DNA of 64,000 nt from Streptomyces rhizosphaerihabitans (lineage in GTDB: Bacteria; Actinomycetota; Actinomycetes; Streptomycetales; Streptomycetaceae). Location: assembly GCF_025399795.1 (NCBI RefSeq), contig NZ_JAODTZ010000001.1, positions 62,001 through 126,000 of the forward strand, given 5' to 3'. The notes under the pieces were generated by a model, which did not search any database, was not told where the DNA came from, and saw nothing but the letters and a program-made list of their open reading frames with translations. A program made the position numbers and the translations under genes. Positions 1,685 to 60,678 of the stretch are shown in pieces (positions within the stretch are counted from its first letter, which is position 1; each line of letters opens with the position of its first letter).

Positions 1685-3277
1685 TCCGTACTTGGACGCG
1701 ATGGAGTTCCAGAGCCTCGCGGCCTTCTCCTTCTGGGCGGAGGCCGTGCCGCTGGCGGCGTCGCCCGCCCGGGTCTGCCCGGTGTTGCGGGCGTGGCCCT
1801 TGTGGCAGCCCTTCTTGTCGTTGCCGATCTGGTCGGCCCAGGCCGCGTAGTGGTTGTCGGCCGCCGCGGAGGCCTTCCAGCCGTTGGTGAGGGCGGCGGC
1901 CAGCTCGTCGTGGTTCGGCAGCTTGTCGACCGCCAGGGAGGAGAGCCGGGTGACCAGCTCGCCGCGCTGCTTGGCCGCGTCCCGCAGATCACCGGCCGCC
2001 TGGCCGAGGTTGTTGCACGCCTTCACGTTCGCCACGGCGCTGATCACCGAGTCACGGCTGCTGGTGCTGTCCGCGAGGACCTTGTCCAGCTCGACGGCCT
2101 GCGCCTTCACCGGGTCGCCGGCGGCCGCCGACGAACCCTGTGTGGCGGGCGAGGTCGCGGCCACCGTCTTGCCGGTGTCGTCGTTGCCACCGCCTCCGCC
2201 GCCACTGAGCAGGGCGCCCGCGCCGACACCGAGCACGATGATGCCGATGCCGACGGCCGCGATCACCGGGACGCGTGAGCGACTGCGGTCACCGCCGCCC
2301 GCTCCGTCGCCGTCGGACGGGCCACCACGCCGTGCCGCGGCCCGGCCACCGGGCGCGCCCGGCGCGGACTGCCCGCCGTACATGTCGCCCGCGCCGTGCG
2401 GGGCCTGTGGTGCGCCCGCGTCGATACGCGGCAGCATCTGCGTCGCCCCGGCCGCTTCCGGCTCACTGCGGAAGAGATTGTCGAACTCCGCCGGGGGCTG
2501 CCGCTCCTCCGGAGCGCCGGCGGGTATCCCGTAGGACCCGGACGGCTGTGCGGGCACGGGCGGGATGTACTGCGTGGCGTCGGCGTCCGAGCCGACGGGC
2601 GGCAGCGATCCGGCGCCGGGACCGCCCTGCGGCGTCTGCCCGAGGTACTGCGTCGCTTCGGGCCGGACCTCCGGCGGCAGCGCGCCCGGTCCCACCGGCG
2701 GTATGAACTGCGTCGCCCCCTCGTCACCACCCGGAGCGGCCGGGATGTACGGAATGTACTGAGTCGCCCCGTCTTCGCCGCCGGACGGCATCGACGCGCC
2801 CTGTCCGGCGTGACCGCCCTGCTGCTCCTGGGCCCCGTAGTTGCTGCCGTAGCCGTCGTATCCGGCGGCCGCGTGCGAGCCGTGCGCCCCCGGCGCATAG
2901 CCGTTCCCGGCGCCGTACGACGAGGGCTGCGCGCTCTCGGGCGGCAGCGGTCCGGAGCCGGATCCCTGCTGGGCGAAGCCCTGCGCCTGCTGTGCGCCGT
3001 GCGGGTCCGACCCCGGCCAGCCCTGGGGCCCGGAGGGCGCGGAGGCCTCCCACGACTGAGGGGCGTTCACCGGCGCACCCCAGCCGTCACCGGGCTGCGG
3101 GGCCGGGGCGGCCGACTGGTCGGGGCCCCACTGTCCGCCCCAGCCGGGAGCACTCACCGGCGCCACACGGTCACCCGCCGTACCCGGCAGCAGCGGCTCG
3201 CTACCGTCGGAGGGCAGCACGATGCCTTCGCGCGCGGGCCGCGCCGAGGGCTCCTCGCCCTGTCCACTCTGCGTCAC
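1655..3277 (-). CDS. Membrane protein with long Gly/Pro/Gln-rich cytoplasmic arm and short extracellular domain
   Basis: The 540-aa protein has about 330 residues of low-complexity sequence rich in Gly, Pro, Gln and Ser. It includes at least five spaced copies of an ATQYIPP-type motif (ATQYIPYIP, ATQFIPPV, ATQYLGQTP, ATQYIPPV, ATQMLPRI). One transmembrane helix follows (VPVIAAVGIGIIVLGVGAGALL), then a Gly tract and a roughly 170-aa C-terminal domain with conserved Cys and Trp that should lie outside the cell. The topology resembles Streptomyces membrane proteins with disordered cytoplasmic N-termini. The repeated ATQ motif could be a phosphothreonine or scaffold motif, but that is speculation. 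The GTG start at 3277 is preceded by AGGAG. The function is unknown. Confidence 0.75.
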   Translation of the reverse strand: MTQSGQGEEPSARPAREGIVLPSDGSEPLLPGTAGDRVAPVSAPGWGGQWGPDQSAAPAPQPGDGWGAPVNAPQSWEASAPSGPQGWPGSDPHGAQQAQGFAQQGSGSGPLPPESAQPSSYGAGNGYAPGAHGSHAAAGYDGYGSNYGAQEQQGGHAGQGASMPSGGEDGATQYIPYIPAAPGGDEGATQFIPPVGPGALPPEVRPEATQYLGQTPQGGPGAGSLPPVGSDADATQYIPPVPAQPSGSYGIPAGAPEERQPPAEFDNLFRSEPEAAGATQMLPRIDAGAPQAPHGAGDMYGGQSAPGAPGGRAAARRGGPSDGDGAGGGDRSRSRVPVIAAVGIGIIVLGVGAGALLSGGGGGGNDDTGKTVAATSPATQGSSAAAGDPVKAQAVELDKVLADSTSSRDSVISAVANVKACNNLGQAAGDLRDAAKQRGELVTRLSSLAVDKLPNHDELAAALTNGWKASAAADNHYAAWADQIGNDKKGCHKGHARNTGQTRAGDAASGTASAQKEKAARLWNSIASKYGLTQRTRTQL

Positions 3278-3739
3278 CGGGACTCCTACGAATGGGGGAC
3301 CTTCGGAATCATCGGCTCACGCTACCGGGTCCCCACAACCCGGTGCTACGCAGCACCGGCAGTGATCCCCGTGCCGTGTGACGCGGGTAACGAAACCGCC
3401 CCCGAATGCGCTGTATTCGACTGCCCTCGCTCACAGCGCCCACGTTTTCCCGGCGTTCACGCCGGTACAGGCCATATGTTCATTCGTGCGGACCCGAAGG
3501 CACGGAAGAGAAATGATCACACCCGCGCCGGAACCCGGGCGATCGCGCCGCCCCTGGACGACTCCCCGGGCCCTCACACCGAACCCTCGCTGCAAACGCT
3601 CACGCCGGAGCGCACGCGCCACGGTGCGCACGGCGTTCGGTTCACATGGGGCGCACGCGGCGTGCGCCCCCAGCAGGACACACGCCGTCCGTCCACGCCG
3701 AGCCGCGCACGACTCAACCCACGTGCCCCACGCGTGCGT
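3278..3739. other. Intergenic stretch of about 460 nt
   Basis: It holds the upstream region of the minus-strand membrane-protein gene at the left and the 3' side of the NsdA-like gene at the right, including the hairpin at 3648-3670. No convincing coding sequence or RNA gene was seen. Confidence 0.5.
3648..3670 (-). terminator. Hairpin downstream of the NsdA-like regulator gene
   Basis: GGGGCGCACGC at 3648-3658 is followed after one base by its exact complement at 3660-3670. It lies about 70 nt beyond the stop (3740) of the minus-strand regulator gene. Confidence 0.5.
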
Positions 3740-5125
3740 TCACGCCGCCGCCTGCAACTCCATGCGCGCCCCGAACTCCCGCACCACGGCCTCGTCCTGG
3801 AACGGCTCCAGGCGCTGCTGCAGGTCCTCCAGGTACTCGGCGCCGCGGTTGGAGCGGAGGGTGCCGAGGAGTTCGACGGCGCGCAGACCGGTGTGGCAGG
3901 CCTGCTCCACCTCGCGCTGCTGGACCTGTGCCGTGGCCAGCAGGACGTAGCCGATGGCCCGGCGGCGGGCACGCGACTCGGGATGGCCGGCCAGGGACTC
4001 CTCGGCGCACCGCGCGGCGGCCTCGGCCTGGCCGAGGTCCCGGTGGCAGTGGGCCAACTCGTCGGCCAGATAGGCCTCGTCGAAGTGCGCGATCCACGTC
4101 GGGTCGTCCCCGGAGGACTCGTCGGCGTTCTCCAGAGCCGTGACGGCCCGCCCCGACGCCACCTGCGCGGCGCGCGCGTCGCCCATCAGCGCGTGCCCGC
4201 GCGCCTCGGCGGCGTGGAACATCGACTCCGCCCGCGGTGTCACCCGCCCGCGTGCCCCCTCCTGGGCCGCGCGCGCCAACTGCGCGATCTCGCGCGGGTT
4301 GCCGAGCTGGGCGGCCAGGTGGCTCATGGACGCGGCCAGGACGTAGCCGCCGTAACCGCGGTCGCCGGCCGCCTGCGCCAGCCGCAGCGCCTGGATGTAG
4401 TAGCGCTGGGCGAGCCCGGGTTGACCGGTGTCGATGGCCATGTAGCCGGCGAGTTCCGTCAACCGGGACACGGCGGCGAACAGTTCGCGTCCGACCGCCT
4501 CCCGGTAGGAACCGGCGAGCAGCCCGGAGACCACGCTGTTCAGGTAGTGCACGACGACCGGGCGCACATGACCGCTGCCGTACTGGTGGTCGAGCTGGAC
4601 GAGGGCCTGGGTCATCGCGCGGACCGCCGCCACGTCCGAGAGCCCGACGCGCGGGCCCGCCGAGCGGGCGACCTGCGAGTCCGGCGACGAGATCAGCCAG
4701 TCACGGCTCGGCTCGACGAGCGCGGAGGCCGCGACGGACGACCCGGACAGGAAGTCCCGTCGCCCCACGTCGCTGCGCCACAGCTCGCAGACCTGCTCGA
4801 TGGCGCCCAGTATGGTCGGCGAGAACTGGAGACCGACGCCGGACGCCAGGTTCTTGCCGTTGGCCATGCCGATCTCGTCGATCGTGACCGTCCTGCCGAG
4901 CTTGCGGCCGAGCGCCTCGGCGATGATCGCCGGAGCCCGGCCCCGCGGCTGCTGACCGCGCAACCAGCGCGCGACGGACGTCTTGTCGTAGCGCAGATCG
5001 AGTCCGTGCTCCGCTCCGCACATGTTGACCCGGCGGGCCAGCCCGGCGTTCGAGCAGCCCGCTTCCTGGATGAGTGCCTGCAGTCGTTCGTTCGGCTGCC
5101 TGGCGATGAGAGGCCTTGCGGCCAT
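3740..5125 (-). CDS. NsdA-like HTH/TPR regulatory protein
   Basis: The 461-aa product has an N-terminal segment (RQPNERLQALIQEAGCSNAG, then ARRVN and a KTSVARWLRGQQPRG helix-turn-helix-like stretch). A helical middle and C-terminal region follow with repeated A/L/Y patterns typical of TPR repeats (for example GQPGLAQRYYIQALRLAQAAG and DLGQAEAAARCAEESL). This architecture matches the Streptomyces NsdA family, whose founder represses antibiotic production and sporulation. Several paralogues exist per genome, so this need not be NsdA itself. The ATG at 5125 is preceded by AGGGGGT with 6-nt spacing, and the upstream in-frame extension lacks family features. It is divergent from the primase-like gene, and I recall that this pair is conserved in Streptomyces. 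Confidence 0.75.
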   Translation of the reverse strand: MAARPLIARQPNERLQALIQEAGCSNAGLARRVNMCGAEHGLDLRYDKTSVARWLRGQQPRGRAPAIIAEALGRKLGRTVTIDEIGMANGKNLASGVGLQFSPTILGAIEQVCELWRSDVGRRDFLSGSSVAASALVEPSRDWLISSPDSQVARSAGPRVGLSDVAAVRAMTQALVQLDHQYGSGHVRPVVVHYLNSVVSGLLAGSYREAVGRELFAAVSRLTELAGYMAIDTGQPGLAQRYYIQALRLAQAAGDRGYGGYVLAASMSHLAAQLGNPREIAQLARAAQEGARGRVTPRAESMFHAAEARGHALMGDARAAQVASGRAVTALENADESSGDDPTWIAHFDEAYLADELAHCHRDLGQAEAAARCAEESLAGHPESRARRRAIGYVLLATAQVQQREVEQACHTGLRAVELLGTLRSNRGAEYLEDLQQRLEPFQDEAVVREFGARMELQAAA

Positions 5126-53226: not shown

Positions 53227-55626
53227 ATGACCCACATCGACGCGGGCGCCGAACTCGATCCCGTTCACCCCGTGCCCATACCCGCCTCCCGGCGGGCCGA
53301 GGGGTTGTCGGCCGCCGAGGTGGCCGAGCGGGTCGCGCGCGGCGAGGTGAACGACGTCCCGGTGCGCAGCAGCCGCTCCGTGGGCGAGATCGTCCGGGCG
53401 AACGTCTTCACCCGCTTCAACGCGATCATCGGCGTGCTCTGGCTGATCATGCTGTTCGTGGCGCCGTTCCAGGACAGCCTGTTCGGTTACGTGATCATCG
53501 CCAACACCGGGATCGGCATCATCCAGGAGTGGCGGGCCAAGAAGACCCTGGACTCGCTCGCGGTCATCGGCGAGGTGAAGCCGACCGTCCGCAGGGACGG
53601 GGTCGCCGCCGAGGTCCGCGCGTCGGAGATCGTGCTCGGGGACCTCATCGAGATCGGGCCGGGCGACAAGGTCGCCGTCGACGGCAGTTGCGCGGAGGCC
53701 GACGGACTGGAGATCGACGAGTCGCTGCTCACCGGGGAGGCCGACCCCGTGGTCAAGCACGCCGGCGACCCGGTGATGTCGGGCAGCTTCGTGGTCGCGG
53801 GCAGCGGCGCCTTCACCACGACGAAGGTGGGCCGGGAGGCGTACGCGGCACAGCTGGCGGAGGAGGCCTCACGGTTCACGCTGGTCCACTCCGAGCTGCG
53901 CAGCGGTATCTCCACGATCCTCAAGTACGTGACGTGGATGATGATCCCGACCGCCATCGGCCTCGTCATCAGCCAGCTCGTCGTCAAACAGCACGGCTTC
54001 AAGGACTCCATCGCGCGAACCGTCGGCGGGATCGTGCCGATGGTCCCCGAGGGGCTGGTCCTGCTCACCTCCGTCGCCTTCGCGATCGGCGTCATCCGTC
54101 TTGGCCGGAAACAGTGCCTCGTTCAGGAACTCCCCGCCATCGAGGGCCTCGCCCGCATCGACACCGTCTGCCTCGACAAGACCGGAACCCTCACCGAGGG
54201 CGGCATGGACGTCACCGAGCTACGGCCGCTGCAGGGCGCCGACGAGTCGTATCTGCGCAGGGTCCTCGGCGCGCTCGGCGAGGCGGATCCCCGGCCGAAC
54301 GCCTCCCTCCGGGCGATCATCGCCGCCTACCCGGACAGCGAGGAGTGGCGCTGCACCCAGGCACTGCCCTTTTCCTCCGCCCGCAAGTACAGCGGCGCCG
54401 GGTTCAGCGAGGGCAACGGCGAGTCCAGCACCTGGCTGCTCGGCGCTCCCGACGTGCTGCTGCCCGCCGGGGACGCGGCGCTCGCCGAGACCGAGCGGCT
54501 GAACGAGGCGGGGCTGCGGGTGCTGCTGCTCGCGAAGACCACCAAGGACCTCGACGACCCCGAAGTGGCGGAGGCCGCGCGGCCCGCCGCGCTGGTCGTG
54601 CTGGAGCAGCGGCTGCGCCCGGACGCGGCCGTCACCCTGCGCTACTTCGCCGACCAGGACGTCAAGGCCAAGGTCATCTCCGGCGACAACGCGGTGTCGG
54701 TGGGCGCGGTGGCCGGCAAGCTCGGGCTCACCGGCGAGGTCGTGGACGCGCGCCGGCTGCCCACCGAGCCTCAGGAGATGGCCGAGTCCCTGGAGAAGGG
54801 CACGGTCTTCGGGCGGGTCACCCCGCAGCAGAAGCGGGACATGGTCGGCGCCCTGCAGTCCCGCGGGCACACGGTGGCGATGACCGGCGACGGCGTGAAC
54901 GACGTCCTGGCCCTGAAGGACGCCGACATCGGGGTGAGCATGGGCTCGGGGTCCGAGGCCACCCGCGCGGTGGCCCAGATCGTGCTGCTCAACAACAGCT
55001 TCTCGACACTGCCCTCGGTGGTCGGGGAGGGCCGCCGGGTCATCGGGAACATCACCCGGGTCGCGACGCTCTTCCTGGTGAAGACGGTCTACTCGGTCCT
55101 GCTGGCCGTCCTCGTGGTCTGCTGGCAGGTCGAATATCCCTTCCTGCCACGCCACTTGACCCTGCTGTCCACCCTGACGATCGGCATTCCGGCGTTCTTC
55201 CTCGCCCTCGCCCCCAACAAGGAGCGTGCCCAGCCCCACTTCGTACGGCGGGTGATGCGGTACTCGATCCCGGGCGGGGTCGTCGCGGGCGTGGCCACCT
55301 TCGTGATGTATCTGATCGCGCGCCACTACTACACAGGAGACGGCTCGCTGGAGGCGGAGACGAGCGCCGCGACGCTGACGCTCTTCCTGGTCTCGATGTG
55401 GGTGCTCGCGATCATCGCCCGGCCCTACACCTGGTGGCGGATCTGCCTCGTCGCCTCGATGGGCGGGGCGTTCCTGCTGGTGCTCGTGGTGCCGAAGCTG
55501 CAGCACTTCTTCGCGCTGAAACTGGTCGGCACGACGATGCCGTGGGTCGCGGTGCTGATCTCGGTGGTGGCGGCGACCGTCCTGGAGTTCCTGTGGAGGT
55601 GGGTCGACCGCCGCGTTCCCGCGTAG
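53227..55626 (+). CDS. P-type ATPase, CtpE-like (probable Ca2+/cation transporter)
   Basis: This 799-aa P-type ATPase has actuator motif SLLTGEADPVV (TGE), transmembrane M4 motif MVPEGLVLLTSV, phosphorylation site CLDKTGTLTEGG and hinge MTGDGVNDVLALKDADIGV. PEG in M4 and the short N-terminus match mycobacterial CtpE, reported as a calcium-uptake ATPase, better than heavy-metal or P2 calcium pumps. TACCGT ends 7 nt before the ATG at 53227. Confidence 0.85.
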   Translation: MTHIDAGAELDPVHPVPIPASRRAEGLSAAEVAERVARGEVNDVPVRSSRSVGEIVRANVFTRFNAIIGVLWLIMLFVAPFQDSLFGYVIIANTGIGIIQEWRAKKTLDSLAVIGEVKPTVRRDGVAAEVRASEIVLGDLIEIGPGDKVAVDGSCAEADGLEIDESLLTGEADPVVKHAGDPVMSGSFVVAGSGAFTTTKVGREAYAAQLAEEASRFTLVHSELRSGISTILKYVTWMMIPTAIGLVISQLVVKQHGFKDSIARTVGGIVPMVPEGLVLLTSVAFAIGVIRLGRKQCLVQELPAIEGLARIDTVCLDKTGTLTEGGMDVTELRPLQGADESYLRRVLGALGEADPRPNASLRAIIAAYPDSEEWRCTQALPFSSARKYSGAGFSEGNGESSTWLLGAPDVLLPAGDAALAETERLNEAGLRVLLLAKTTKDLDDPEVAEAARPAALVVLEQRLRPDAAVTLRYFADQDVKAKVISGDNAVSVGAVAGKLGLTGEVVDARRLPTEPQEMAESLEKGTVFGRVTPQQKRDMVGALQSRGHTVAMTGDGVNDVLALKDADIGVSMGSGSEATRAVAQIVLLNNSFSTLPSVVGEGRRVIGNITRVATLFLVKTVYSVLLAVLVVCWQVEYPFLPRHLTLLSTLTIGIPAFFLALAPNKERAQPHFVRRVMRYSIPGGVVAGVATFVMYLIARHYYTGDGSLEAETSAATLTLFLVSMWVLAIIARPYTWWRICLVASMGGAFLLVLVVPKLQHFFALKLVGTTMPWVAVLISVVAATVLEFLWRWVDRRVPA

Positions 55627-55638
55627 GGGCTGCTTCAG

Positions 55639-55724
55639 CCAGTGGAGAAGGGGCCCCTGAGGTGGTCGTTCCCTACGGCTCGTCTTCACACGGGGCCCAA
55701 GTGATGGTGGAGTCTGCCGACTCG
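55639..55724 (-). repeat. Copy A of a duplicated promoter-like segment
   Basis: It matches 56687-56775 at most positions (shared GGTGGTCGTTCC, ACGGCTCGTC, CCCAAGTGAT) and contains GAGTC-TGCC-GACTC. No gene start follows it on the minus strand; it lies between the CtpE-like gene's stop and the terminator of the secreted-protein gene. Confidence 0.75.
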
Positions 55725-55816
55725 AAAAAAGATCACCTGGGCCTACGGAAAAGTTGCAGGAGAGACGGATTCCTTGGTCGCCCCTTACCGGCGTCGCGGC
55801 GGGGTGGGGACAGACA

Positions 55817-55846
55817 AAGATCCCCGGCCGCCGGGCCGGGGATCTT
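55817..55846 (-). terminator. Terminator of the secreted-protein gene
   Basis: AAGATCCCCGGCC, loop GCCG and the exact 13-nt complement lie 21 nt beyond the stop at 55867. Confidence 0.75.
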
Positions 55847-55866
55847 CGGTCAACTCAACTCATGGG

Positions 55867-56676
55867 TCACTGCACGTCGACGTAGTCACCCGTGGCACTG
55901 ACGGCCGAGGTGGTCGAGGTGCCCGCGAAGCTGTAGCGGAAGGTGCCGTCGACGGTGGCCGTCGTGGTCGTCTTCAGGTTGCCGGAGCTGTCCGTCTTGA
56001 CCGTCTTGAGGGTGGTGTAGGTGCTGCTGCCCGCCTTGCGGAACTGCAGATTCACCGACTGGGTGCCGTAGCCGTAGTACTTGGCGGCGTCCCAGCTCGC
56101 GCGGGTCAGCGCGCCGGTGACCGTGATGGTCTTGCCCTTCTTGACCGGCTCCGGGGCGGCGTTGACCGTCAGCTTGGAGTAGCGCTGGAGGTTCTTGGTG
56201 CCCAGGTCGCCCTGCCACTTGACGTTGTTGGTGTTGCCGGTGGCGTCGACGGCGACCGCGCCGACCTTCCAGGCGCCGGCCTCGGCGGAGGTCAGGTCGT
56301 CGTAGTCGGCGCCGGGGACCGGACGGAACTGGATCTCGGCCGTGCACTTGAACTCGGTCGAGGTGGAGACGGTGCAGGTGCCGCCCTCGTCGCCGCCGAG
56401 GATGTCGGTCGGCGAGGTGATCGAGGTACCGCGGTAGAGCACCGGGCCCGTCTCGATGGAGCTCGGGTTGAGGCCCGACGGGTGCGTCACCGTGTAGGTC
56501 GCGCTGACCGTGACCTGCGCCGAGGCACCGACCACGATGTTCTTGCCACTGTTGATCACGACGTTGGAGAAGGTGACGCCGGACACCGGGTTGCCTGCGG
56601 CCTGCGCGGCCGGCACGGCGAGAGCGGAGAGGGCCAGGGCGCCGGTGACGGCGGCCACGGTGGCTCGTATGCGCAT
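55867..56676 (-). CDS. Secreted Ig/calcium-binding-like protein of unknown function
   Basis: The 269-aa protein has a Sec signal peptide (MRIRATVAAVTGALALSA, cleavage after AAQA) and a beta-rich mature part with Thr/Ser/Asn-rich strands (VTVSATYTVTHPSG, TTATVDGTFRYSFAG) that looks like two Ig-like domains. Two Cys residues (GGTCTVSTSTEFKC) may form a disulfide. The composition is less GC-extreme than that of neighbours, as is common for abundant secreted proteins. ATG at 56676 is used. The upstream segment is duplicated at 55639-55724. Confidence 0.65.
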   Translation of the reverse strand: MRIRATVAAVTGALALSALAVPAAQAAGNPVSGVTFSNVVINSGKNIVVGASAQVTVSATYTVTHPSGLNPSSIETGPVLYRGTSITSPTDILGGDEGGTCTVSTSTEFKCTAEIQFRPVPGADYDDLTSAEAGAWKVGAVAVDATGNTNNVKWQGDLGTKNLQRYSKLTVNAAPEPVKKGKTITVTGALTRASWDAAKYYGYGTQSVNLQFRKAGSSTYTTLKTVKTDSSGNLKTTTTATVDGTFRYSFAGTSTTSAVSATGDYVDVQ

Positions 56677-56686
56677 GTGGGGTTCC

Positions 56687-56775
56687 CCAAGTGGGAAAGG
56701 GGGTCCCGGCGGTGGTCGTTCCTCACGGCTCGTCGTCAGCACGGGACCCAAGTGATCAGTGAGTCTGTTGACTCA
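56687..56775 (-). promoter_or_regulatory. Copy B of the duplicated segment: 5' region of the secreted-protein gene with palindrome
   Basis: This is the immediate upstream region of the secreted-protein gene. TGAGTC-TGTT-GACTCA (56760-56775) is a perfect palindrome whose core is kept in copy A. The position fits an operator or sigma-factor target for the gene. Confidence 0.6.
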
Positions 56776-56909
56776 TGGGTGAGATTAGTGAGAGGTGCGA
56801 CTGGTTGTACGGGTGGGGTGTGGGAATCGCAGTTTTTAGGTGGGCATTGCTCGCCGATGACGAAGCACGGAGGAACGCCCGGTCCGGGCATTACCGAAGC
56901 CCTGGCTCA

Positions 56910-57008
56910 CCCGGCCCAGGGTGAGCCCGGCCCAGGGTGTTCCCGGGACCGGGTGAGCCCGGAACCGAGCGCTCCCGGCCACCGGCGTTCCCGGGGCCGG
57001 GCAGTGCT
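56910..57008. repeat. 16-bp tandem array, about six units
   Basis: Units CCCGGCCCAGGGTGAG, CCCGGCCCAGGGTGTT, CCCGGGACCGGGTGAG, CCCGGAACCGAGCGCT and CCCGGCCACCGGCGTT follow in exact 16-nt register from 56910 to 56989, with a last longer unit. It lies in the 405-nt gap before the GHKL ATPase gene's 3' end; the remaining gap sequence shows nothing recognisable. Confidence 0.8.
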
Positions 57009-57081: not shown

Positions 57082-60000
57082 TCAGTCGAACCAGCGGTCC
57101 CGGGCCAGTTCCTCGGTGCGGGACGGGTCCTCCAGCAGCGCCGCGACCTCGAAGCGGCGCGGCCACTGGCCCGCCGACCAGGCGAGGCCGGCGGCGACGC
57201 CCTCCACGGTGGCGGCGTGCAGCACCCCGTCCCGGGTGCGGCGCCAGTCGAGTTCGGTGCCGTCGACCACGAGCTCCTCGTGCTCGACGTACGAGGCGGG
57301 GGTCCCGGGGCCCAGCAGGACCCGTACGGACTCCGGTACGTCGTGCTCGGTGCCCTCGGAGGTCACCTCGCCGGTGACGGACTCGCTGAGCCGCCGCACC
57401 TGGAACAGCTCGGCGAGCTCGGCGGCCCGTGACGGCGGCACCGGCAGCAGCGGCACCCCGTCGGTGAACGCCAGCAGATCCGGTGAGTCCACGACCATCG
57501 CGTCGGCCGCGTCCACGACCCGCACCTCACCGTCCACGACGGCCCGCAGCTCGTCCGGCAACGTCACCCGCTCGGGGTCGAGGTCGGCCAACGCGCCGTA
57601 GAGGGCGTGCAGTTGGGTTCCGAAGACCTCGCGGTCCGGGTCGGCGAGCCGGTCGAGCAGTTCGGCGGCGCCGCCGGGCTCGTCGAGCAGGGCGGCCACG
57701 GACGTACGGACACCGAGCGCCCGCAGCACCTGTTCGTCGTCGAAGCCGGTCGCGTCGGCCTCGTCGTACAGGCCGCGCAGCAGCGGATCGCCGCCGGCCG
57801 CGCGCAGACCGGCCGGGCGGCGCCCGTCGAGCACCGGATGCCCGCGCAGCCACCAGGCCGTGTAGGGCCGGACGATCTCGTGCGTGCCGTCCGGCAGCAG
57901 GATGCGCACCTGCTGGGTGATCGCGTCCCGCAGCGGCGGCTGGGCGAGCAGGGCGAGGGCCTCGGGCCACCGCTCGTCGTCCACCAGGTCCAGATCCCGT
58001 ACGGCGACGATCTCGGTCGCGACGGGCGGCACCGGCGAATCGGGCAGCCGGTCCAGAACGTCCTCGCACCACACGTCCACCGCGTCCAGCAGACCGGCGT
58101 CGTCGGGCTCGGCGAAGTCCGCGTCGCGCGGCTCCAGTTCGTCCGGATCGAGCACGATGTCGGTGGCGCGCACCAGGGCGAAGCCGGCGAGGACGCCGCA
58201 GGCGGCGAGCGGCTGCTCACCCCAGCGGTCGGCCAACTCGGAGTCGACGAAGGCGAGTTCGTCCTCGCGCATGATCCGGGCGAACGGGCTGCCGGGCAGC
58301 ACGAGTTCACCGGCGGGCACGAGCTCCCCCTCGTCGTCCGGCAGGGCGAGAGCGCCGAGCCAGGGCTCGTCGCCGGGTTCGAGGGCGGCGTCACGGACCA
58401 GCGCGAGGACGGTGTCCGCGAGCTCCTCCGCGTCCGGGGTGTCCTCGTCCCACGCCCCGCCCTCGTCGTCGAGCGAGGCGGCCACCGCGGCCCGCACCTG
58501 CGGGGTGGTGAGCACCGCGCGGGGCGAGGCCGGAAGAGCGCCCAGTTTCTCCAGGAGCGGGTGGGCGGCGTCCGGGTGCGCGACCTTGAGGCCGAGGCGG
58601 GCGAGCGTGTCGGGGGCCACCAGGGTCCCCTCGGCGGTGGGCAGCAGGATCTGGCGGGGCCCGATGGTCGTACGGCCGTCGGCCAGCGGCACCGGCAGTC
58701 CGGACAGCCGGTCCGGGTCGACCCCGGCCAGGCTGTCGTACAGGCGGTGCCACCAGCCCGGGTCCTTCTCCAGACCGGCCAGCCGGTCCACGGCCTCGGT
58801 GAGCGGAACCCGGGCGACGCCCAGCGTGCGCAGTTCCACCCGCCGCTCCAGCCCGGCGGGCAGCAGGCTGGGCAGCACCTCGGCGAGCACCCGGACGGTC
58901 TCGGCGCCCGCACCCTCCACCACCTCGGCGTCGCGCGGCCGCAGCGTGGTGGGATTCTCGGCGGGGCTGCTCTCGGGCCAGTCGTCCGGGGTGTCTGCGG
59001 CCGGCATCCGGTCCGGCAGGGCCGCGGGCGGCAGGAACGCGGTGCGCGGCAGCCGGTCCAGGATCGCCTGGCGCAGCGCGCCGTCCAGCTCGCCCTTGCC
59101 GAGCGGACCGGGCACCAGGTCGATGATCCCGGTGTCCACCGGCCGCCAGGAGGCGAGGAGTTCGGCGTAGGCGTCCGCCGCGCGCTCCACCAGGAAGTCG
59201 GTCAGCGGGCCGGGGGCGGCGTGCCGCCGGGTGGTGTCGAGCGGGAGGGAGGCGATCAGGAGCGCGGGCACGCCGAGGGCTTCGTCGCTCGGCGTCGGCG
59301 CGTGCACGACGGGGCTGGTCCGCGGGCGGGCCGGGGCTCCCTCGGCGTCGACCGGGACGGCCCAGGTCACGGACCAGTGCGGACGCAGCCGCTCCTCGAC
59401 CGGACGGTCGGCGAGCAGGGCGGGGTCGAGGGGGCCGTGCCGGTCGACGGTGCGGTAGCGGGTCGCGCCGTCGCGGGAGTCGTCGATGACGGCCCCGTGC
59501 TCGGCGCTGCCGCGGCGCAGGGTGCGGACCTCCGCGTCGCCGATCTCGACGACCACTTCCTCCAGGCCCGGAAGGGCGAGCAGGAGGGCGTCGTCGATGT
59601 TCCGCAGGAGGCGCTCGGCGAGATCCTCGGCCGCGGTGTCGCGCAGCGGCAGGATCACGGCGGTGTCGTACGGGTCCGGGGCGGTGCCCTCGGCCGCGAA
59701 CGGCAGCCGCAGCAGGGGCACATGGCCGTCCCGGCGGCGGATCTCGTCACCGAGGCCGGGACTGTTCCCGGCGGTACCGGCGGCCAGATCGCGTGCCTCG
59801 GCGAGCGCCCAGCGGACGCCGCCCTGGCGCCCGACGACGGCGGGCTCGTCGGTGACGGCGAGGACCGCGGCGAAGCCGACACCGAAACGGCCCACGGCCG
59901 TGTCGGCCGCGTCCCGCTTCGCGGAGGCGCGGAGGGTGGCGAGCGACTCGACGCCGGCCGCGTCGAGGGGGGCGCCGGTGTTGGCGGCCACCAGGACGCC

Positions 60001-60243
60001 GTCGCGGAGGGTGAGGCGCAGACGGCCCGGGATACCGGCGCGGGCCGACGCGTCGGCGGCGTTCTGGGCGAGCTCCACGACGAGCCGGTCGCGGTAGCCG
60101 CCGAGGACGAGGTCCTCCTCGGCGTTGGCGTCCTCACGGAACCGGGCCGGGCTGGTCGCCCAGGCGTCCAGTACACCGCGGCGCAGGCGCGCCGTGCCGA
60201 ACGGGTCCGCACCCTCGGCAGCCGGCCGCACGAACTTACTCAC
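57082..60243 (-). CDS. Giant GHKL-fold (sacsin/Hsp90-like) ATPase domain protein
   Basis: The 1053-aa protein begins SKFVRPAAEGADPFG and has a GHKL ATP-binding domain: N-box VVELAQNAADASARAG, G1 VLVAANTGAPLD and G2 VGRFGVGFAAVLAV (residues about 60-140), as in sacsin-type repeats. The remaining roughly 800 residues lack a recognised enzymatic domain and look like long helical/beta modules. Such proteins are annotated as Hsp90-like ATP-binding proteins in Streptomyces. A chaperone or scaffold role is inferred. GTG at 60243 follows GAGAGGGAGA. Confidence 0.75.
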   Translation of the reverse strand: MSKFVRPAAEGADPFGTARLRRGVLDAWATSPARFREDANAEEDLVLGGYRDRLVVELAQNAADASARAGIPGRLRLTLRDGVLVAANTGAPLDAAGVESLATLRASAKRDAADTAVGRFGVGFAAVLAVTDEPAVVGRQGGVRWALAEARDLAAGTAGNSPGLGDEIRRRDGHVPLLRLPFAAEGTAPDPYDTAVILPLRDTAAEDLAERLLRNIDDALLLALPGLEEVVVEIGDAEVRTLRRGSAEHGAVIDDSRDGATRYRTVDRHGPLDPALLADRPVEERLRPHWSVTWAVPVDAEGAPARPRTSPVVHAPTPSDEALGVPALLIASLPLDTTRRHAAPGPLTDFLVERAADAYAELLASWRPVDTGIIDLVPGPLGKGELDGALRQAILDRLPRTAFLPPAALPDRMPAADTPDDWPESSPAENPTTLRPRDAEVVEGAGAETVRVLAEVLPSLLPAGLERRVELRTLGVARVPLTEAVDRLAGLEKDPGWWHRLYDSLAGVDPDRLSGLPVPLADGRTTIGPRQILLPTAEGTLVAPDTLARLGLKVAHPDAAHPLLEKLGALPASPRAVLTTPQVRAAVAASLDDEGGAWDEDTPDAEELADTVLALVRDAALEPGDEPWLGALALPDDEGELVPAGELVLPGSPFARIMREDELAFVDSELADRWGEQPLAACGVLAGFALVRATDIVLDPDELEPRDADFAEPDDAGLLDAVDVWCEDVLDRLPDSPVPPVATEIVAVRDLDLVDDERWPEALALLAQPPLRDAITQQVRILLPDGTHEIVRPYTAWWLRGHPVLDGRRPAGLRAAGGDPLLRGLYDEADATGFDDEQVLRALGVRTSVAALLDEPGGAAELLDRLADPDREVFGTQLHALYGALADLDPERVTLPDELRAVVDGEVRVVDAADAMVVDSPDLLAFTDGVPLLPVPPSRAAELAELFQVRRLSESVTGEVTSEGTEHDVPESVRVLLGPGTPASYVEHEELVVDGTELDWRRTRDGVLHAATVEGVAAGLAWSAGQWPRRFEVAALLEDPSRTEELARDRWFD

Positions 60244-60678
60244 GGGTTCACTCTCCCTCTCGCCTGGCGCGACCGCGAATGCTGCGCCGGGTCGCGGCAT
60301 GAAGGTACCGCGCGCTCTCCCCGGCTTCCGCCGCCGCCGGCCGCGGTGAGTGCGTGGCCCCCTCCGCCGGAAGACCCCTGCGGGTGCATCGCGGCTGAGC
60401 TGCAACCGCTCACGGTCCTACGGCCCCGCCCCGCCCCCTTAGGCCACGGGGGCAGGATTCAGCCCCTCCGGCGTTTGAGGAGCGGGGTCCGGGGCGGAGC
60501 CCCAGGGGTGATGGGGGTCCCCCTGGCCGAGCGAAGCCGAGACCTTGGGGGAGGGCAGGGGCGGCGGGGGCGAAAGAAGCTTGTGGCTGTGCCGAGGCGA
60601 GGTGAGACGGGTGCCCCCGGGAGAGGTAAGCCCCAGGGCGGGGAGGCCGCCAGGCAGGGACGGCCGCCGCCTCGGGGG
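60244..60678. other. Intergenic region of about 435 nt carrying Streptomyces repeat elements
   Basis: It holds a CTCCGGCGTTTGAGGAGCGG element (about 60465-60508) and a GGGGGTCCCCCTGG...TTGGGGGAGG element (60513-60557), both of types common in Streptomyces intergenic DNA. It contains the upstream region of the GHKL ATPase gene. No coding sequence was seen. Confidence 0.5.
60465..60557. repeat. Two adjacent Streptomyces intergenic repeat elements
   Basis: The first element (60465-60508) contains CTCCGGCGTTTGAGGAGCGG and GGGGCGGAGCCCC; the second (60513-60557) is a palindrome with GGGGGTCCCCC and TTGGGGGAGG arms around CCGAGCGAAGCCGAGA. The second is related to those at 21521 and 31018. Confidence 0.6.

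Follow-up and report, generated by a model that had tools for sequence, protein, structure and literature searches.

Gene loss in a tandem array of Streptomyces secreted-protein genes, seen through a surviving promoter and structured mRNA leader

Introduction

In the window, that is, the whole stretch of 64,000 nucleotides of the Streptomyces rhizosphaerihabitans genome analyzed here, a segment of about 85-90 bp occurs twice, once upstream of a gene for a secreted protein and once about 1 kb downstream. So what is this segment, and how could its second copy (copy B) come to stand where there is no gene? The first-pass annotation of this DNA took the repeat for a promoter segment and offered two origins for the orphan copy, a lost tandem paralogue or a mobile regulatory unit. 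Comparison with related genomes leads us to conclude that the locus records the loss of a gene from a tandem array, seen via the surviving promoter-leader, and that the repeated segment is a promoter together with a structured mRNA leader. The features discussed below are collected in Table 1.

Table 1. Features of the array locus, in coordinates of the window
Feature	Position	Strand	Remarks
P-type ATPase gene	53227..55626	+	convergent; conserved flank beside the lost gene
Deletion scar	55630..55638	.	about 9 bases (CTGCTTCAG) matched to neither side, from the ATPase 3' end to truncated leader B
Orphan copy B	55639-55758	-	promoter remnant (GCAAC-N20-TC), P1, P2, 5' half of P3
P2 hairpin, copy B	55651..55698	-	GGGCCCC...GGGGCCC; compensatory to copy A
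P1 hairpin, copy B	55710..55723	-	GAGUC-GGCA-GACUC
Terminator-like hairpin 3' of the secreted-protein gene	55818..55846	-	GATCCCCGGCC...GGCCGGGGATC; common to relatives
Secreted-protein gene	55867..56676	-	269 aa; signal peptide MRIRATVAAVTGALALSALAVPAAQA; two predicted Ig-like beta-sandwich domains
Copy A of the repeat	~56683-56810	-	promoter and leader, 5' of the secreted-protein gene
P3 hairpin, copy A	56683..56698	-	UUUCCC-ACUU-GGGGAA; covers the Shine-Dalgarno sequence GGGGA
P2 hairpin, copy A	56701..56749	-	GGGUCCCG...CGGGACCC; apical CGAGCC-GUGA-GGAACG
P1 hairpin, copy A	56761..56774	-	GAGUC-AACA-GACUC; the palindrome of the first-pass annotation
Promoter, copy A	56782..56810	-	GTACAAC ... 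TAATCT (AAC-N19-TC)
Sacsin/HSP90-like protein gene	57082..60405	-	conserved flank at the opposite end of the array; start codon provisional

A repeat with and without a gene

The two direct copies are present in the same orientation as described, with their starts 1050-1051 bp apart. They align in two blocks, 55644-55688 with 56694-56738 (82% identical) and 55689-55723 with 56740-56774 (80%), and the homology extends some 35 bp upstream of the limits originally drawn, to ~56810 and ~55758, its upstream start being the CGTACAAC/CCTGCAAC element. A search of the whole 10.2 Mb genome with copy A gave two matches above chance level: copy B, at E 4e-13 (80% identity over 81 bp), and, at E 1e-16, a third copy located on contig 95. 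The GAGTC-N4-GACTC palindrome reported for both copies is indeed there and, within the window, at these two places only: GAGTCNNNNGACTC is found twice (55710-55723 and 56761-56774) against an expectation of 0.14, a count of at least two being reached in 2 of 100 shuffles. That copy B drives no gene is likewise borne out: it starts 13 bp past the stop of the ATPase gene, faces the 3' end of this convergent gene, has no gene of its own downstream on its strand and no ribosome-binding site, and is not followed by a strong terminator.

The secreted protein encoded after copy A has a typical signal peptide, no match in Pfam or NCBIfam and no sequence match in the PDB. Its predicted structure (mean pLDDT 83) consists of two Ig-like beta-sandwich domains, and a fold search with it returned generic Ig-like domains, without an informative homologue. 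In alignments of the paralogues, the signal peptide (MRIRATVAAVSGALALSALAVPAAQA) is much better conserved than the adjoining mature sequence, perhaps as a result of gene conversion or of a constraint on the 5' part of the mRNA. The region between the sacsin-like gene and the promoter of copy A (56878-57002) is densely filled with GC-rich nested inverted and direct repeats (CCCGG..CAGGGTGAGCCCGG).

An unstable array and a deleted paralogue

Between the sacsin-like and ATPase genes lies a tandem array, small and unstable, whose paralogous members encode secreted proteins with two Ig-like domains; most of its units have their own promoter and structured mRNA leader. In a first set of 20 members of the genus, the array lies beside the same ATPase gene in every case and the sacsin-like gene is present in 19, with one to three tandem paralogues per array and a leader before most of them; the 79 named Streptomyces loci show the same arrangement. 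Among the 92 loci with both flanks visible, the window included, 23 carry one family gene, 46 two, 22 three and one four, with the provisos that the single four-gene locus is perhaps a split match and that three pairs of loci come from the same record. All 91 relatives in this set have at least one family gene and about three quarters have at least two, so that none is empty. At the level of the family, the protein family is found in 74 of 150 genomes and the full leader model, under strict filters, in 17 of the 150. Orthologues of the secreted-protein gene of the window occupy either end of the array, depending on the species, from which we infer that members of the array are often gained and lost.

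The gene in the window and gene 1 of Streptomyces aureus NRRL B-1941 and of another relative, G220, are orthologues (support 0.96), and it is the comparison with G220, whose ATPase is 95% identical, that accounts for copy B. The window tracks G220 through the terminator after gene 1 and then through the promoter and leader of gene 2, after which there is a gap of ~1 kb in the window over exactly the coding sequence of gene 2, and the homology resumes at the ATPase stop. The second paralogous gene that the first-pass annotation had proposed to seek in related genomes is found exactly after the equivalent of copy B, lying in close relatives between this leader and the ATPase stop, and has been cleanly deleted here; the opposite outcome, a segment that is single-copy in all relatives, did not materialize, tandem units of leader plus gene being common. 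Thus, the locus shows both marks of a tandem array that has lost a member, namely, a second or third paralogue at the equivalent site in relatives, directly before the ATPase gene, and homology on both sides of the deletion.

In the window, the sequence across the junction is ...GCGTAGGGG-CTGCTTCAG-CCAGTGGAGAAGGGGCCCC...; its left part, GCGTAGGGG, corresponds to the ATPase end in both G220 and S. aureus NRRL B-1941, and CCAGTGGAGAAGGGGCCCC, on the right, is the 5' half of the third hairpin of the leader. One breakpoint lies in this hairpin, just before the Shine-Dalgarno sequence, and the other a few bases past the ATPase stop. Judging by this comparison, the ATPase-proximal unit has lost its entire coding sequence by deletion, and copy B is the remainder. 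End joining is a plausible cause of the deletion; the lost gene may already have been other than intact just before it, and the apparent deletion may itself be an assembly error at the junction.

A dispersed member of the family outside the array, on contig 8 (L191, 239054-239105), shares the CGTACAAC promoter element and also has a hairpin like P1. We considered the contig-8 member, the closest other one in this genome, as the lost gene in a new location; it is ~55% identical to the second gene of a relative and has a different leader of its own, so that its identity with the lost gene is not clear.

A promoter with sigma-E-like spacing

The description of the repeat as a promoter segment is correct in that a promoter is present, and too narrow in that the larger part of the repeat belongs to a structured RNA leader. 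The sequence RCAAC-N19-TC precedes the first hairpin in 160 of 165 hairpin-bearing leaders, and the variant with N20 does so in one of the 165 (RCAAC-N19-20-TC has a frequency of 1.5% in shuffles); the consensus of the leader promoters is CGTACAACC...GTCRCGRATCTGATC, and in copy B the spacing is, by inspection, N20. In the published table of Streptomyces coelicolor sigma-E promoters, the criterion is the presence of AAC and TC, with N19 in 30 of the 35 AAC-containing entries counted and N20 in the other five (PMC6767563), and nearly all of the promoters analyzed here have AAC ... TC at 19 or 20 nt. The likeness to the sigma-E targets lies in AAC and TC being 19 nt apart and in the cell-surface or secreted products, and the difference in the -10 element, which is usually RATCTG in these leaders as opposed to CGTC (PMC6767563): CGTC is absent, copy A having AATC (AATCTC) and the family mostly RATC, and some relatives from other genera of the family (L194, L197) have GTCTG, which is nearer to CGTC. 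Because the -10 element is not CGTC, we term the promoter sigma-E-like and do not call it a sigma-E target; the assignment of the copy A promoter to sigma-E, made by spacing, is no more than a lead.

One entry of that table, sco4289, annotated as 'secreted protein' (PMC6767563), was considered as an orthologue and, when located in genomes by its promoter, turned out to be unrelated. Of the five genomes matched by this promoter, three are without the family and two have it at another site; in the S. coelicolor-like genomes tested, the gene is absent or represented by a distant member only.

A structured 5' leader

The repeat is a promoter followed by a structured 5' mRNA leader with three hairpins, P1, P2 and P3. 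In a plain MAFFT alignment of 27 leaders that was not fitted to structure, standard pairs make up 92.5%, compared to 90.9% in shuffles and 26-59% when the pairing is slid, and double-sided changes number 12, compared to 2.5 in shuffles. In the alignment of 138 distinct sequences fitted to the model, 21 of the 23 pairs show double-sided, compensatory change (119 cells vs 25 shuffled), 94% of the cells are paired, compared to 54-58% after a shift of one column (0 of 500 shuffles), and the covariation score is 0.151, compared to 0.089 for shuffles and no more than 0.052 for slid pairings, it being understood that such an alignment leans to the structure and inflates the pairing. Copy A folds better than its shuffles (z -2.25), and copy B taken alone does not (z -0.46). 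RNAalifold, applied to a MAFFT alignment of 70 diverse leaders, recovered P1 and a short 3' hairpin only, missing P2 because this hairpin is too variable for sequence alignment.

The fourth pair of P1 varies among the units: 104 have U-A, 41 C-G, 10 U-G and three more G-G. The palindrome that forms P1 could instead be an operator, bound as DNA by a dimeric regulator: the dyad is perfect, it lies immediately 3' of the -10 region, and its flanks (TGATCA...GATCA) are often symmetric as well. We regard this as unlikely. A symmetric DNA operator should yield G.U and A.C equally, whereas in P1 units selected on the three invariant pairs only, the one-sided changes at the other two pairs are 15 G.U and no A.C (P 6e-5, with relatedness ignored); furthermore, the palindrome belongs to a larger covarying RNA structure, and its loop, AACA, is conserved yet asymmetric. 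In an earlier version of this count, with P1 taken at a fixed offset from the promoter, there were 45 G.U and 34 A.C, units with shifted spacing being out of register. Thus, an RNA stem-loop is the best interpretation of the palindrome.

P2 is facultative: of the 165 hairpin-bearing units, 59 have a short leader of P1 and a 3' segment only. In two loci (L082:5910-6002 and L137:4726-4823), P2 is swapped for a long stem of unrelated sequence in the same place, so that the stem is kept and the sequence is not. In short leaders without P2 (L062:3814-3867; L069, upstream of 3044-3949), the gap has at its two ends the CACTT(GGG) repeat that flanks P2, which suggests loss by recombination between short repeats. 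In P3, the Shine-Dalgarno sequence GGGGA is paired with UUCUCC, and the changes are mostly one-sided.

How the leader might work

We propose that, in the intact unit, an ECF sigma factor of the sigma-E (cell-envelope stress) type would start transcription at or beside P1, as the spacing indicates. Given this start site, the stem-loop would lie at the very 5' end of the mRNA, where it could shield that end; P2 would be a dispensable long stem, absent from some units, and P3, by pairing the Shine-Dalgarno sequence, would tune or gate translation. Both putative functions, stabilization by the 5' stem-loop and gated translation, are read from the anatomy of the leader.

Several known systems offer themselves for comparison. 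Translational riboswitches, thermosensors and autoregulatory leaders are structured 5' leaders that hide the ribosome-binding site; here, too, the Shine-Dalgarno sequence is in a conserved helix beside the start codon, whereas there is no known aptamer or Rfam family and the central hairpin is facultative and variable in sequence. The 5' stem-loops of the ompA type are mRNA stabilizers. These leaders resemble them in that the mRNA of an exported protein is predicted to have a hairpin at its 5' end or close to it, and differ in that the sequence is unrelated. ANTAR-target RNAs consist of two adjacent hairpins with conserved hexaloops. The likeness to these RNAs lies in the tandem hairpins in actinobacterial leaders (PMC8164766); they differ in that P1 has the tetraloop AACA and P2 is a long stem, and the leaders contain no pair of short hexaloop hairpins.

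Could the leader then be a riboswitch-like element that senses a ligand or a protein and controls translation via P3? The conserved apical motif of P2, GACGAGCC-N4-GGAACGACC, would suit this possibility, as would the placement of the Shine-Dalgarno sequence within a helix and the cytosines in the 3' arm of P2 that could compete for it. However, a hairpin that is missing from so many units, or replaced by unrelated stems, does not resemble a ligand pocket, and the leader matches no Rfam class, the Rfam covariance models having given, at the gathering score, two chance-level matches, neither of them on leaders. We therefore consider sensing of this kind improbable.

Orphan and dispersed copies

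A covariance model of the leader yields 143 matches in 83 sources, 141 of which directly precede a family gene: in 137, a long open reading frame comes directly after, and four more, the 3' ends of which were placed beyond the start codon, precede family genes by tblastn. The two orphans are copy B and the copy on contig 95, both in this genome; the other 141 matches being in front of family genes, the orphan state is, in our sample, particular to this genome. The contig-95 copy (L021:2853-2957) leads into what is left of the signal-peptide codons, the start codon being absent, and then into pseudogene-like sequence. No intact gene follows and, because the copy runs on into these codons, it is a dead gene fragment. 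Transposase-like reading frames lie ~2.7-3.7 kb off (L021:5607-6594). A search of the genome with a pattern of promoter plus P1 found copy A, the contig-95 remnant, one family member on contig 8 and ten other places that seem unrelated, about as many as the backward-read control gives; copy B departs from the pattern at the first base. Were copy B transcribed, its RNA, a short stretch of leader, would extend antisense into the 3' end of the ATPase gene.

Retention of copy B as a stand-alone small RNA or as an antisense regulator of the ATPase is very unlikely. P1, P2 and the promoter-like GCAAC-N20-TC are still present; but the orphan, being unique to this genome in the sample, is not conserved as an RNA gene, its promoter has drifted, the end of the segment offers no strong terminator, and a recent deletion accounts for its persistence. 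The same low odds attach to a joint reading in which the leader is an undescribed family-specific RNA that couples envelope stress to translation of the secreted array, and the orphan acts as a free-standing RNA, either a decoy or an antisense to the ATPase mRNA; if true, it would cover Streptomyces and some relatives, the decoy being one for a leader-binding factor. The suggestion that the repeat is a mobile regulatory unit, inserted beside the ATPase gene and never associated with a gene there, can draw on the geneless state of copy B and on a third copy on another contig near transposase-like reading frames, but is contradicted by the alignment with G220 and is highly improbable: copy B sits where relatives have the leader of the second paralogue, in the same orientation, homology with the relatives continues upstream of the leader into the intergenic terminator, the contig-95 copy is a gene fragment, 141 of the 143 leaders stay before family genes, and no terminal inverted repeats or target-site duplications bound the copies, the borders of homology being those of genes.

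Discussion

The explanation that accommodates these findings best, comprising the array, the loss of the paralogue and the working model of the leader of an intact unit, has in our estimate a probability of about 0.8. Overall, the finding is a modest one, a gene loss that has left behind an undescribed leader RNA. It defines an RNA leader that is well supported by covariation and not in Rfam, and that fronts a family of Streptomyces secreted proteins for which there is no Pfam or NCBIfam model. It also illustrates that a regulatory leader can outlive its own gene, whereby the loss of that gene becomes visible.
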